In this document: positions 48,789 through 55,612 of the stretch, one piece after another
Layout: each line of letters begins with the position of its first letter
Numbering within the stretch: position 1 is the first letter of the stretch
Assembly (NCBI GenBank): GCA_903859155.1
Contig: CAIOLO010000009.1
Span: 22,341 to 86,340, forward strand
Direction: 5' to 3'
DNA length: 64,000 nt
Source of the DNA: an uncultured beta proteobacterium
GTDB lineage: Bacteria; Pseudomonadota; Gammaproteobacteria; Burkholderiales; SG8-39
Notes under the pieces: generated by a model
What the model saw: the letters and a program-made list of their open reading frames with translations, nothing else
What the model was told of the DNA's origin: nothing
The model's database searches: none
Position numbers and translations under genes: made by a program

Positions 48789-48881
48789 TGGCGGAAGAGG
48801 TTGGAGTCGAACCATAGGGAACGCAAGCGCCCCCTCAGCGGATTTGAAGTCCGTGCGCCCCACCGGGAACGTGACCCTTCC
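48789..48881 (-). tRNA. selC: tRNA-Sec (anticodon UCA), 3' end imperfect
   Basis: On the minus strand the sequence starts GGAAGGGT and ends CTTCCGCCA (93 nt with encoded CCA). The anticodon loop CTTCAAA holds UCA, which reads UGA. The long D-arm (CCCGGTGGGG), the extra-long variable arm (GGGGGCGC paired with GCGTTCCC, two G-U) and TTCGACT in the T-loop are the tRNA-Sec marks. The acceptor and T stems do not pair cleanly: the 3' strand is one base short of 13 and has several mismatches. selA lies 2.5 kb upstream on the same strand. Confidence 0.88.
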
Positions 48882-48994: not shown

Positions 48995-49342
48995 CTACTG
49001 ATTGAGCAAAGGAATGCTCTTGTAGTCCGCCGGTTTCGGGATCGACGCCAGATAGGCCTGGATGTCGGCGATATCCGCGTCGGACAGCACCGGCTCCATG
49101 TACGGCGGCATCGCACCGTTCGTATGGCGCAGGAACGGCACCAGTGCTACTAGTGGCATCGGTTCCGGCGCGAGCTTCGGGCCGGCGCCACCGCCCTGGC
49201 CGAGGTAGCCGTGACACTGCCAGCAACCGTACTTTGCGTAGGCGGTCTTTCCTTTTTGCGCGTCAGCGGCGAATGCCGAGCCCTGGGTTACGAAGAAGCC
49301 GGCAGCGAGCGCGGCCGTTGTGAGCAGATTCGAAACTCTCAT
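48995..49342 (-). CDS. small c-type cytochrome
   Basis: 115 residues with a signal peptide (about 1-25, FFVTQGSAFAA) and one heme-binding CWQCH near residue 40. A Met for the sixth ligand may be in NGAMPPYM. The short C-terminal helix VLSDADIADIQAYLASI is typical of class I cytochrome c. GGGAGG stands upstream of ATG 49342. It begins 13 bases after the exported TPP enzyme gene, so the two proteins should be made together and both act in the periplasm, making it a likely electron acceptor (inference). Confidence 0.9.
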   Translation of the reverse strand: MRVSNLLTTAALAAGFFVTQGSAFAADAQKGKTAYAKYGCWQCHGYLGQGGGAGPKLAPEPMPLVALVPFLRHTNGAMPPYMEPVLSDADIADIQAYLASIPKPADYKSIPLLNQ

Positions 49343-49355
49343 GATCATTCCTCCC

Positions 49356-51323
49356 TTAGCGAGGTTGAGTCCAGACGTTGAGCAGGGCGGGCTGGCCGGA
49401 CTTGACCGCCGCGACGGCTTCGCGAAGCGCGGGCGCGAGCTGCCTGGGGTCCTTGATCGGCCCCTTCGCCCACCATCCCATCGATTCCGCGAGCTTCTCG
49501 TACTGGACATCGGGATTCATGATGCCGCAGCCCACCGGGGCCGTGTCTTGTCCGAGGTTCACCACGCGGTTGCGGAAGTTCGCGGTTCGCTGGAGGTGCA
49601 TCAGTTCCTGGTGCCAGCCGCGGTTGTTGTGCACGAGCATCAGCAGCGGAATCTTGTGTTTCGCCGCCGTCCACAGCACACCCGGCGCGTACATGAGATC
49701 GCCGTCGCCGACGAAGGCGACCGTAAACCGGCCCAGGTCGCGATTGGCAAGTGCTGCCCCGACTGCCCCCTGCGGGCCGTAGCCCTGCCCGGCGCCGCCC
49801 GAGCCGCCGATGTGGTGGTAATACTTTTCCATCGGCCACAGGCGCAGCGGCCAGTTGCTGATGCCGTTCGGGGCGTTGGCGACGCACCAGTCGAGGTCCT
49901 TAATCGCGCCATAGGTTTCCATGACCATGCGCGCGGTGCTGATGGGGCTCGCGTCCCAACCGAGCGCCGCCGCCTCGCGGGTACGCGCCAGCGCCTGGGC
50001 ATACGACTGCTTCGCGGCCTCGGCGCGCTTGGCGATGGCGGCTTTGCCGGCATTGGGTATGGCCGCCTTCACCGCCTCGATCAGCGCGGGAAGCGTCGCC
50101 TCGGCATCGCCTGCAATCGAGACGTCAACCTCCTGGAAGCGCTGGAAGTCCTGGTAATTCGACTTGCTGATCAGCTCCATGGAGCTGATGCTGATCAGCT
50201 TTGTCCCCTGCTTGGTTCTGGGACCATTGGTGGTGCCGATGCCGTTGACGCCGTTGTCGGTGAAGCTGTTCACGGTGTTCCAGAAATCGGAGAGTTCCAT
50301 GCCGATGATCACATCGGCATTGGCGACGACGCCCGGCGCACTGCTGAGGTAGTGCGTCTTGGGGAAGTTCATCCGGCCGTTCTGATCGACGACACGGGCC
50401 TGCAGCGCCTCGGCGAGCTGGACGAGGAGATTCATCCCGTTGGGAGTGCGTGCAGCCCGATCCACCACGATCACGGGGTTCTGCGCCTGTGCCAGCAGCC
50501 GCGCGGCTTCCTTCACCGCGCCGGTGTCGCCCTGGGGCGGCGCGGTCGGCACATACTTGGGGATGTAGAGCTTCTCGCCGTGGCTGCGGATCGGCTCCTG
50601 CTGCAGCCCGGCGTCGAGCGAAATCGCGACCGGTCCGTAGGGTGGCGTCATGGCTATCTTGTAGGCGCGCACCATGGACTGGGCGTAATGCTGCAGCGAC
50701 ACCGGCATGTCGTCCCACTTGGTGTAGTCGCGCACGATCGCGTTGATGTCCTGCGCGGCGTGATAGGTCGGCACGCCGGGCGGGCGGTGCGCGGCATCCA
50801 TGTCGTTGCCACCCACGATGATAAGCGGCACCCGGTCGCACCAGGCGTTGTAGATCGCCATGGTGGCGTGTTGCAGGCCCACCGTGCCGTGACACAGGGA
50901 CAACAGCGGCTTGCCGGTGATCTTGTAGTAGCCGTGGGCGATCCCGATCGCCGATTCCTCGTGCATGCAACTGATGAACTCGGGCATCTTGTTGCCGCCG
51001 TAATCGATCAGCGACTCGTGGATGCCGCGAAAGCTCGAGGCGCAGTTGGAGGGCATGTACTTGATGTCGAGCGTCTTGATGACATCGACCATGAAATCCG
51101 AACCGGCGGTGCCCCCTATGCGCCCCATGTCCTGGGGCGGATGCGTTTCGGCGGCCATGCTTTTTGCCGATGGCGGCAGCGCCGAGGGCGTGCGCGGCTG
51201 CGGTTTGGCCGCTTCCGCGGCGTTGGCCGCGGGCGGTGTCATTGCACTCGCAGCCCCCGCTGCGATGGCTCCGGCTAAGAACTGCCGGCGACCGACTTTC
51301 GGATTCGAATCCTTGCGTGCCAT
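49356..51323 (-). CDS. Tat-exported thiamine pyrophosphate-dependent enzyme
   Basis: 655 residues. The N-terminus carries a twin-arginine signal (GRRQFLAGAIAAGAAS), so the folded protein, probably with its cofactors, should go to the periplasm. The rest is the acetolactate synthase-type TPP fold: the PYR domain has the Glu region (CMHEESAIGIAHGYY), a middle domain follows (NPVIVVDRAAR), and the PP domain has GDGDLMYAPGVL then HNNRGW. GGAGGGG precedes ATG 51323. The next gene is a cytochrome c, which suggests an oxidase-like reaction with electron transfer. Substrate unknown. It stands 93 bases after selA on the same strand. Confidence 0.9.
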   Translation of the reverse strand: MARKDSNPKVGRRQFLAGAIAAGAASAMTPPAANAAEAAKPQPRTPSALPPSAKSMAAETHPPQDMGRIGGTAGSDFMVDVIKTLDIKYMPSNCASSFRGIHESLIDYGGNKMPEFISCMHEESAIGIAHGYYKITGKPLLSLCHGTVGLQHATMAIYNAWCDRVPLIIVGGNDMDAAHRPPGVPTYHAAQDINAIVRDYTKWDDMPVSLQHYAQSMVRAYKIAMTPPYGPVAISLDAGLQQEPIRSHGEKLYIPKYVPTAPPQGDTGAVKEAARLLAQAQNPVIVVDRAARTPNGMNLLVQLAEALQARVVDQNGRMNFPKTHYLSSAPGVVANADVIIGMELSDFWNTVNSFTDNGVNGIGTTNGPRTKQGTKLISISSMELISKSNYQDFQRFQEVDVSIAGDAEATLPALIEAVKAAIPNAGKAAIAKRAEAAKQSYAQALARTREAAALGWDASPISTARMVMETYGAIKDLDWCVANAPNGISNWPLRLWPMEKYYHHIGGSGGAGQGYGPQGAVGAALANRDLGRFTVAFVGDGDLMYAPGVLWTAAKHKIPLLMLVHNNRGWHQELMHLQRTANFRNRVVNLGQDTAPVGCGIMNPDVQYEKLAESMGWWAKGPIKDPRQLAPALREAVAAVKSGQPALLNVWTQPR

Positions 51324-51416: not shown

Positions 51417-52840
<1,424 letters not shown>

Positions 52841-52844
<4 letters not shown>

Positions 52845-53863: not shown

Positions 53864-55612
53864 TCAGGCGGCGGGCAGCGGCCCCAGATCCTCCCCGGCC
53901 TTTTCCAGCAGCGCCTGCCAGCCCCCGGGCAATGCAATCTCCCGCGACGCCGGTCCTCCGGTGCCGCCGTGCACCTGCAGCCAGTAGGAGTGCCCCGACT
54001 GCTCGCCGCCGGCCACCACGATCATGATGTTCGCGGGAGCGGGCGTCACCGGCATCGGAAACTGCACCTGATCCTTGACATAGAGGCCGTGGCGGGCGCC
54101 GAAGTGATCGAGCATCTTCTCCAGCCATGCGCTGCGCGGCAGCTTTGAATTCTCCCAGAGGTATTGCCGTATCTTTGCCTTGCTCCATCCCAGCCTGGCA
54201 AAACCCTGCGCGGTGCCGCGCGCGATCAGCACGATCCCCGGCGCACCGTGCGGATTGAAGGTATCGGCGAAGTAGCCGCCAAAGGGCACGCGCATGCATC
54301 CGGCAAAGTTGAACAAGGTGTGCTGCGCGTCTTTCTCCTCCAGCGCCGCCCCCTCCCAGACCTCGGTGCCGCCCGAGGTGGCAAGCACCGTCACGGTGTT
54401 GCTGCCGCGCGCAAACCCGCGCTCGGTATTCTGCGGCGCCCAGTCCGCAGGCAGCCCCGCTTCGTCCTCGGCGAACACCAGGCCCGTATAGCGCGCGGGA
54501 CCGCCGTGTATTGCCATGGTGCCGGTGCCCGGAATGGCGCCGCCGACGTTCATCAGCAGCAGCCGCAAGGCCCGCCCGATGGCCGCACCGGCCGGATACA
54601 CCGAACTCGGTCCCAGGCAGCCGTAGCCGGAATTGATGCGTAGCTGCCGCGCGACGGGACCATTCACAATCACCGCCGGGTGCGCATTGCCGGTGGTCGA
54701 CTGCATGTGCTGGTGATACACGCGCGGGTCGAGGATGGCCTCGACCGCCGCGATCAGAACCGGCAGATATTCGGGCCGGCAACCCGCCATCGCGGCCGCC
54801 ACCGCGACACTCCCGACAGTGGCAAATCCGCCCTTGGGCAGCAGTTTGCCCAGCAAGCGCTCGCGCGGCAGATCCGTACCGCGCAGCAATGCGGCCACGC
54901 GCTCTTCGGTGGGCGGCAGCAATGGCAGGCCGTCGCTCCACAGATTCCTGAGGAAAAGGTGATTCAGGTTTTCGAGCGCATCGGCATAATCCTTGCCGCT
55001 GACTTCAAGGCGCGGCGGTTGCAGCACGGTCTTGCGCGTGCTTTTGGGCGCCCAGCGTGTCAGCGCGTCGATCACCGCATCGATATTGTCCGCCAGCGGC
55101 GAGAGGTCCGCGCCCGGCAGGAACATTGTCATCGGATAGGAGAACTTCGCGGCCTCGCCGGAGAATCCCAGCCCGGCAAAAGCGTTATCGACCACCGACG
55201 CGAATCCCTGGCGCGTGATCACAAATGAAGGTATCCCGCGCTTCTCGGCTCTGGCTGCGGCCCGACCGGCCGCGGTGGCACAACTGCCTCAGGCGGCGTT
55301 GCCGGTGATCACCGCCTCGCAACCGCGCTCGAGCAAGAGATCAATAACGCCGTCGTGGTCGATGTTCTCGGTGCCGCGCGGAAACTCGGTATAGGGGATG
55401 ATCTTCAGGTCGGGAAAACGCTGCTGCAATTGCGCGCGCACCGCCGGCAGCGTCGCCTGATCCTCCCAGGAACCGTTGCCCAATTCTCCGATGGTTTTTC
55501 CGTGCAAGGATTCCAGCCGCTTGGCGTGCTGTTGCGCCACCTCGACGGCACCCATGGGGTTATGCACCTGCAGGATGAACCTGCCTTTTTCCTCGCCTCG
55601 CGCACCGCTCAT
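53864..55612 (-). CDS. UGSC-motif selenoprotein, fused long form (Sec codon UGA at 55289-55291)
   Basis: The frame reads through an in-frame UGA to give 582 residues with Sec at position 108: ...EAVITGNAA-U-GSCATAAGR. The frame stays open on both sides, 107 codons before and 474 after the UGA. U-G-S-C is the hallmark of the UGSC (seleno)protein family, whose non-selenium members have C-G-S-C. The N-terminal 180 or so residues are the UGSC-like part; the C-terminal domain (WSDGLPLLPPTEERV, VNGPVARQLRINSG) has no function I can name. ATG 55612 has AAGGGGAG at ideal distance; an upstream ATG at 55636 is less well placed. selA and tRNA-Sec lie downstream on the same strand. Confidence 0.9.
55257..55291 (-). 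promoter_or_regulatory. candidate bacterial SECIS element with its UGA
   Basis: On the minus strand the UGA is at 55291-55289. After 21 further bases, a 5-nt apical loop GGTCG (55267-55263) is held by a perfect 6-bp GCGGCC/GGCCGC stem (55273-55268 with 55262-55257). Bacterial SECIS elements sit at this distance, and the loop shows the GGUC seen in the E. coli fdhF element. The lower stem was not worked out. Confidence 0.7.

Follow-up and report, generated by a model that had tools for sequence, protein, structure and literature searches.

The UGSC fusion gene and its in-frame UGA

The window analyzed here is a 64,000-nucleotide stretch of contig CAIOLO010000009.1 (assembly GCA_903859155.1, positions 22,341 to 86,340) from an uncultured beta proteobacterium. 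Its minus strand carries a predicted selenoprotein gene (53864..55612) that encodes a UGSC domain fused to an uncharacterized partner domain. From an ATG at 55612, just ahead of which sits GGAAGGGGAG, the frame runs for 107 sense codons, reaches a UGA (55289..55291, minus strand), and continues for 474 sense codons to a UGA stop at 53866-53864, in agreement with the coordinates and counts of the first-pass annotation of this DNA. Read through the internal UGA, the 582-residue product would carry selenocysteine (Sec) at residue 108, followed by Gly-Ser-Cys. The UGSC domain occupies residues 16-161 (55130..55567, minus strand), and the partner domain spans about residues 205-582 (53867..55000, minus strand).

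The read-through protein matches the Pfam UGSC family PF24696 with 69.9 bits (cut-off 25) over a segment that spans the UGA and is, as judged from its sequence, a member of this known selenoprotein family. It scores 41.8 against the NCBIfam equivalog NF041046, under the cut-off of 125, and falls outside that equivalog. The first-pass annotation had described both flanks of the UGA as protein-like; indeed, G+C contents by codon position are similar on the two sides (0.66/0.41/0.79 before the UGA and 0.68/0.52/0.81 after it), and the PF24696 match crosses from one flank to the other. All 11 PF24696 loci of the source genome contain exactly one in-frame TGA, located at the motif. Among the homologs (3,303 proteins at E ≤ 1e-3 among 7,999 candidates scored), P0007 (584 amino acids) shows 59% identity to the read-through protein across 98% of its length and has Cys-Gly-Ser-Cys at the UGA. 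The family match across the UGA, the CGSC sequence of P0007, and the single TGA in each of the 11 loci place this frame beyond chance. Four further homologs (P0054, P0062, P0074, and P0115) have CGAC at the same place, and relatives no more than 54% identical (e.g., L097) share the UGA, past which their frames continue. The Cys/Sec exchange and the selenoprotein call of the first-pass annotation therefore hold, and neither of the two outcomes that this annotation named as refuting was observed. A sample confined to the best 80 public loci gave 96 UGSC-domain hits in 79 loci, with TGA at this place in 91, Cys in 2 (L123 and L124), Gly in 1, Gln in 1, and a gap in 1. The titles of public UGSC loci include Chloroflexi, Alpha- and Betaproteobacteria, Burkholderiales, Rokuibacteriota, Deltaproteobacteria, and Actinobacteria/Acidimicrobiales, with metagenome bins in the majority. 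In a structural model, the UGSC domain is a flavodoxin-like alpha/beta domain in which Sec108 would lie after a strand, at the start of a helix.

A hairpin resembling a selenocysteine insertion sequence (SECIS) lies downstream of the UGA (55257..55273, minus strand; stem GCGGCC/GGCCGC, loop GGUCG, the loop beginning 21 nucleotides past the UGA). It fits the bacterial SECIS model found in the accessible passages of a 2026 review (loop of 3 to 9 nucleotides, upper stem of 4 to 16 bp, G in the first two loop positions, 16 to 37 nucleotides from the UGA; PMC13188914). We scored 64 UGSC genes (the 11 of the source genome and 53 of at least 78 from relatives G007, G032, and G065) against 60 synonymous shuffles. 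In 61 of these genes, a stem with a score of 16 or more has its loop center 18 to 27 nucleotides from the U that begins the UGA (shuffle mean, 9.9; maximum, 16). Under the published constraints at a lower threshold, hairpins were found in 61 of 64 genes from the source genome and its relatives (15.9 expected), 60 of 63 query-like public genes (41.3 expected), and 25 of 28 other public genes (5.4 expected). Stem sequences vary by UGSC subfamily and the position is roughly constant; in L097 and L113 the hairpin reads GCAGCC-GGUCG-GGCUGC, a matched change on both stem sides relative to the GCGGCC-GGUCG-GGCCGC of the window gene.

Several results weigh against this assignment. On its own, the window-gene hairpin is not significant against synonymous shuffles (p 0.30 and 0.34), so its identification as a SECIS rests on the family; the element that the first-pass annotation had expected after the UGA is strongly indicated across the family and not by this single gene. 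Two of four non-Sec genes also satisfy the published constraints (1.2 expected), an alternative hairpin test discriminated poorly, passing 46 of 103 Sec genes and 2 of 9 non-Sec genes, and the full-length homologs P0040 and P0129 have neither Sec nor Cys at the two motif positions. The insignificance of the single hairpin would also suit a UGA that is a real stop, leaving two proteins or a broken gene, as would the GTG-start open reading frame (ORF) that follows at 55222 and the shorter public predictions, P0002 and P0003, that begin there. Indeed, only 14 of the best 120 homologs contain PF24696 (565-584 residues); the other 106 are shorter and lack the UGSC domain, and the four whose sequences were inspected (P0002, P0003, P0018, and P0041) begin downstream of the UGA place. 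Such starts are what is expected when gene callers stop at UGA. The 22 codons between the UGA and the GTG are, however, protein-like and conserved in both Cys- and Sec-containing homologs, the UGA recurs at the same motif in every one of the 11 copies, and the genome encodes Sec machinery (see below). We consider termination at this UGA extremely unlikely, and the prediction of Sec at residue 108 of the fusion protein is close to certain.

The UGSC/partner-domain module and its copy number

The partner domain, a C-terminal region of about 400 residues for which the first-pass annotation could name no function, is equally silent in our searches: Pfam, NCBIfam, and PDB comparisons by sequence gave nothing significant, with Pfam and NCBIfam matches listed to E 10 and none above the cut-off. 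When a separate copy of the domain served as the query, at least 5,713 homologs were found at E ≤ 1e-3 among 7,999 candidates scored. No Pfam domain occurs in the best 120, and their readable names are "hypothetical protein." Residues invariant over 82 partner-domain sequences include W225, G228, R347, E382, and W391 (fusion numbering), and no Cys is invariant in this set.

Across four genomes, 63 of 64 UGSC genes have the partner domain on their own strand within 310 bases (exception, L073). About 37 of the 64 genes are fusions and 27 are separate genes. This interchange of fused and separate forms is good evidence that the UGSC and partner domains work together, and the conclusion that they form a repeated two-part module is well supported. 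The first-pass annotation had presented the fusion as a single case. Instead, it is one form of a module with 11 copies in this genome, and this copy has selA and a tRNA-Sec gene nearby.

The 11 source-genome loci carry the motifs UGSC (five loci), USTC (three), UGTC (two), and UGGC (one). In a survey of 101 genomes (the source genome and relatives), 32 have UGSC matches, at least 192 in total with at most 31 candidates scored per genome. Six genomes scored in full gave 58, 34, 26, 24, 18, and 11 UGSC matches; the 58 belong to G616, a genome of the same order (98% complete, 2% contaminated, 330 contigs) in which strain mixing is possible, and the 34 belong to G007. Nearly all matches listed for the fully scored genomes have one TGA, the exceptions being one G468 match without a stop and two G616 matches with an extra stop. 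Among the listed matches of the 32 genomes, five are free of stops (L175-L179), all with Cys at this place. Four of these, L176, L177, L178, and L179, form a UGSC subgroup with Cys in place of Sec (CSTC) in four relatives and offer a ready Cys/Sec comparison pair. In G616, loci L198-L201 hold clustered modules of UGSC, partner, and TctC-type receptor genes, several per contig. A wider draw from the order found a UGSC match in 44 of 399 genomes, 41 of them above the cut-off. The available part of a survey covering over 5,200 organisms counts 33 UGSC selenoproteins in 26 organisms (PMC5029168), and the largest whole bacterial selenoproteomes number 57 and 63 in the accessible text of the 2026 review (PMC13188914).

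Selenium machinery and companion genes

On the strand of the fusion gene, the order is fusion, TctC, selA, thiamine-diphosphate enzyme, cytochrome c, and tRNA-Sec (to 48793). The TctC-type solute receptor gene (PF03401; 52841..53815, minus strand) lies 48 bases past the fusion gene, and its stop is overlapped by the likely ATG of selA, encoding selenocysteine synthase (TIGR00474, 580 bits; 51417..52844, minus strand). The thiamine-diphosphate enzyme gene (49356..51323, minus strand) and that for a small c-type cytochrome (48995..49348, minus strand; start picked by eye) come next on the same strand. The tRNA-Sec gene (48793..48881, minus strand) matches Rfam RF01852 with 60.2 bits (gathering score 47) over model positions 1-91 of 91; Rfam detected it and ARAGORN missed it. 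SelB (363.7 bits) and SelD (428.3 bits), both above the cut-off, are encoded elsewhere in the 5.26 Mb genome. By eye, the N terminus of the thiamine-diphosphate enzyme (GRRQFLAG) resembles a twin-arginine export signal; an exported enzyme of this type would be unusual, and the small cytochrome c gene follows it directly.

SelA scores above the cut-off in 41 of the 101 genomes surveyed: 27 of the 32 with UGSC and 14 of the remaining 69 (Fisher p 1.5e-9, with genomes related and counts not independent). The five UGSC genomes without SelA above the cut-off are G004 (partial SelA at a contig end), G012, G016, G030, and G058. In 12 genomes (G000, G007, G009, G017, G020, G022, G029, G034, G038, G040, G054, and G056), the listed coordinates put selA no more than 4 kb from a UGSC gene, and in G007 a selB-like gene (by eye; L060, 8162-10189) adjoins a UGSC module. 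In G002, of the same genus, a short ORF beside selA (L197, 7603-7899, minus strand) corresponds to a close UGSC relative over the latter's initial ~80 residues, continues into TctC-like pieces, and is either a deletion remnant or an assembly join. The adjacency of selA and selB could point to a role of one copy within the Sec pathway. More broadly, it would fit a module that handles selenium, sulfur, or metal as a carrier, sensor, or detoxifier, and the source genome is among the 12. However, most examined copies have no adjacent selA or selB, 58 matches in one genome are more carriers than would be needed, and the partner domain would be left unexplained; we regard this explanation as quite improbable.

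Companion genes of some other modules resemble parts of the thioredoxin system. Five separate partner-domain genes (L026, L027, L065, L082, and L083) have a thioredoxin-like N terminus with CPTC or CDTC. The N-terminal piece from L026 gave 18 PDB matches at E up to 10, all named thioredoxin, with a best E of 0.0039. Flavoproteins that resemble thioredoxin reductase (TrxR) and contain CxxC (CAFC or CASC) adjoin the fusions in L022 and L030. Receptor genes are also frequent: a same-strand TctC gene lies within 700 bases of 33 of 64 modules; for control genes taken from these loci, the figure is 64 of 372 (p 1.7e-8). Other neighbors are mixed: the 69 scanned, of 76 found, include 6 matches to FAD_binding_2, 6 to Pyr_redox_2 (overlapping families), 5 to MmgE/PrpD, and 2 to SelO. 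The SelO (protein adenylyltransferase) genes adjoin UGSC modules in two genomes (L024, 5105-6712; L083, 7597-9201). Three heme-copper oxidase genes are present in the source genome. The window itself (1-64000) contains numerous TctC-type receptor genes, often beside catabolic genes, as in a TctC-rich genome.

The module could be a thiol-disulfide oxidoreductase or peroxide reductase for redox defense rather than a metabolic reductase, with the partner domain serving in docking or oligomerization. The UxxC motif, the thioredoxin-like domains and TrxR-like genes of some modules, and the SelO genes beside two modules agree with such a role; the heme-copper oxidase genes imply that the organism probably meets oxygen, and the accessible text of a 2008 study supposed a thioredoxin-like fold for UGSC (PMC2398784). 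Yet the UGSC domain is modeled as flavodoxin-like, the 11 to 58 matches per fully scored genome and the TctC genes beside half of the examined modules exceed the need, and the partner domain is larger and well conserved. A redox-defense role therefore seems unlikely to us.

Proposed chemistry and comparison with known systems

We consider it about an even proposition that the module is a thioredoxin-fed selenol reductase of organic acids that has radiated into substrate-specific modules. Reading of the UGA as Sec would yield a UGSC/partner enzyme with selenol chemistry. In the manner proposed for GrdB-type reductases, Sec108 would attack an organic acid bound by the partner domain, and Cys111 would resolve the bond as a selenenyl-sulfide. 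The thioredoxin-like domain and TrxR-like flavoprotein, which are seen in sister modules and not beside the window copy, would deliver NAD(P)H electrons. Choice of the substrate would fall to the partner domain and its import to the neighboring TctC receptor; the TctC neighbors are the basis for proposing organic acids. Each copy would serve a different substrate, an arrangement like that of glycine reductase with its substrate-specific B proteins. We infer all steps past Sec insertion, and the thioredoxin link is drawn from sister modules.

Several findings count against this reductase proposal. To our knowledge, no reaction has been described for either the UGSC domain or the partner domain. 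The best Pfam match of the thioredoxin-like N termini is 4.6e-4, below the cut-off, and that of L083 has none. Two TrxR-like proteins score 245.7 and 286.8 against a thioredoxin-reductase cut-off of 343.45, and only 6 of 65 UGSC hits have a TrxR-like gene within 5 kb, with none near the window copy. TctC genes are abundant in these genomes generally. By sequence, Pfam GRDB (PF07355) gave no match to the window protein at 1e-3 or to 8 other UGSC proteins to E 10, a profile search of the source genome found no GRDB match, and two partner-domain sequences had no Pfam match to a pyruvoyl subunit to E 10.

Sec might alternatively act as a covalent, non-redox nucleophile in an isomerase, racemase, lyase, or acyl transfer enzyme, with the Cys as a second catalyst. 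This reading leaves the thioredoxin-like domains and TrxR-like genes of sister modules without a role, and its fold match is weak. Known selenoenzymes use Sec mostly for redox or reductive steps, which also counts against it, and we judge it unlikely.

Beyond the reductase proposal itself, we suggest tentatively, at clearly less than even confidence, that UGSC and its partner may constitute a new class of selenol-dependent substrate reductase, with GrdB-like logic and perhaps a distant common ancestry, that has diversified, both in relatives of this bacterium and in other phyla, into dozens of modules per genome, each specific for its substrate. If so, one selenoprotein family alone would match in size the largest complete selenoproteomes reported. 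UGSC proteins have appeared in selenoprotein lists since 2008 with no function assigned; the fixed partner, the thioredoxin-type companions of sister modules, the GrdB-like motif, and the 11 to 58 matches turn them into a testable enzyme system. Since gene callers halt at UGA, many members are filed as shortened "hypothetical proteins," and part of the catabolic potential would be invisible. Selenoprotein-rich organisms are usually pictured as mostly anaerobes in the accessible parts of the literature (PMC5029168, PMC13188914); the 11 UGSC genes and three heme-copper oxidase genes of the source genome run counter to this picture.

The window gene shares with the UGSC family (PF24696; NF041046, "UGSC family (seleno)protein") its domain, its U/C-G-S-C motif, and a UGA with a downstream hairpin. 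It differs in its fusion to the ~400-residue domain and its score below the NF041046 cut-off, and its paralogs differ in their UGGC, UGTC, and USTC motifs. The first-pass annotation took the fusion to be undescribed or poorly described. A UGSC protein joined to a conserved domain of unknown function, "Unknown_1," has been on record since the 2008 selenoproteome of the Global Ocean Sampling, as far as the accessible text shows (PMC2398784), and that domain may or may not be the partner domain seen here. The domains fused in that study have conserved Cys as a rule, whereas the partner domain has no invariant Cys among 82 sequences; Unknown_1 occurs in few aquatic organisms, compared with the at least 5,713 partner-domain homologs, a comparison made by description only. 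Neither the many UGSC copies per genome nor the partner domain is described in the literature titles and abstract openings covered, and papers by Haft (2023/2025) and a 2026 groundwater paper (with a 63-selenoprotein genome) may hold prior notice. Within the available passages, the architecture and copy number are not described.

Thioredoxin-fold selenoproteins (Prx-like, Trx-like, and DsbA) resemble the UGSC module in their UxxC redox motif and, judging from sister modules, in an apparent thioredoxin connection, but the UGSC domain is modeled as flavodoxin-like. GrdB and the D-proline reductase PrdB (PF07355) differ from the UGSC module, in which UGSC has no PF07355 match and Pfam gives no sign of a pyruvoyl partner, in a source genome without a GRDB match. 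GrdB-like genes with an in-frame UGA (UPAC and UPVC) occur in other genomes of the class (L092, 1297-2565; L095, 967-2100) and are candidate selenoproteins. According to the accessible part of one study, several substrate-specific B-type copies can occur in one genome, several B proteins can feed one glycine reductase, and the C-F bond of fluoroacetate is the predicted target of the selenol in a GrdB-like operon (PMC10838667). In single profile comparisons by hhalign, UGSC aligned with GrdB at a probability of 49-72% (E 3.3e-5 to 1.7e-4) with UxxC in register, while 30 column-shuffled controls and 1 reversed control reached at most 0.5%. The UGSC module shares with the GrdB/PrdB type a UxxC selenol motif, shows this distant profile similarity in register, and would likewise pair the selenoprotein with a further substrate subunit.
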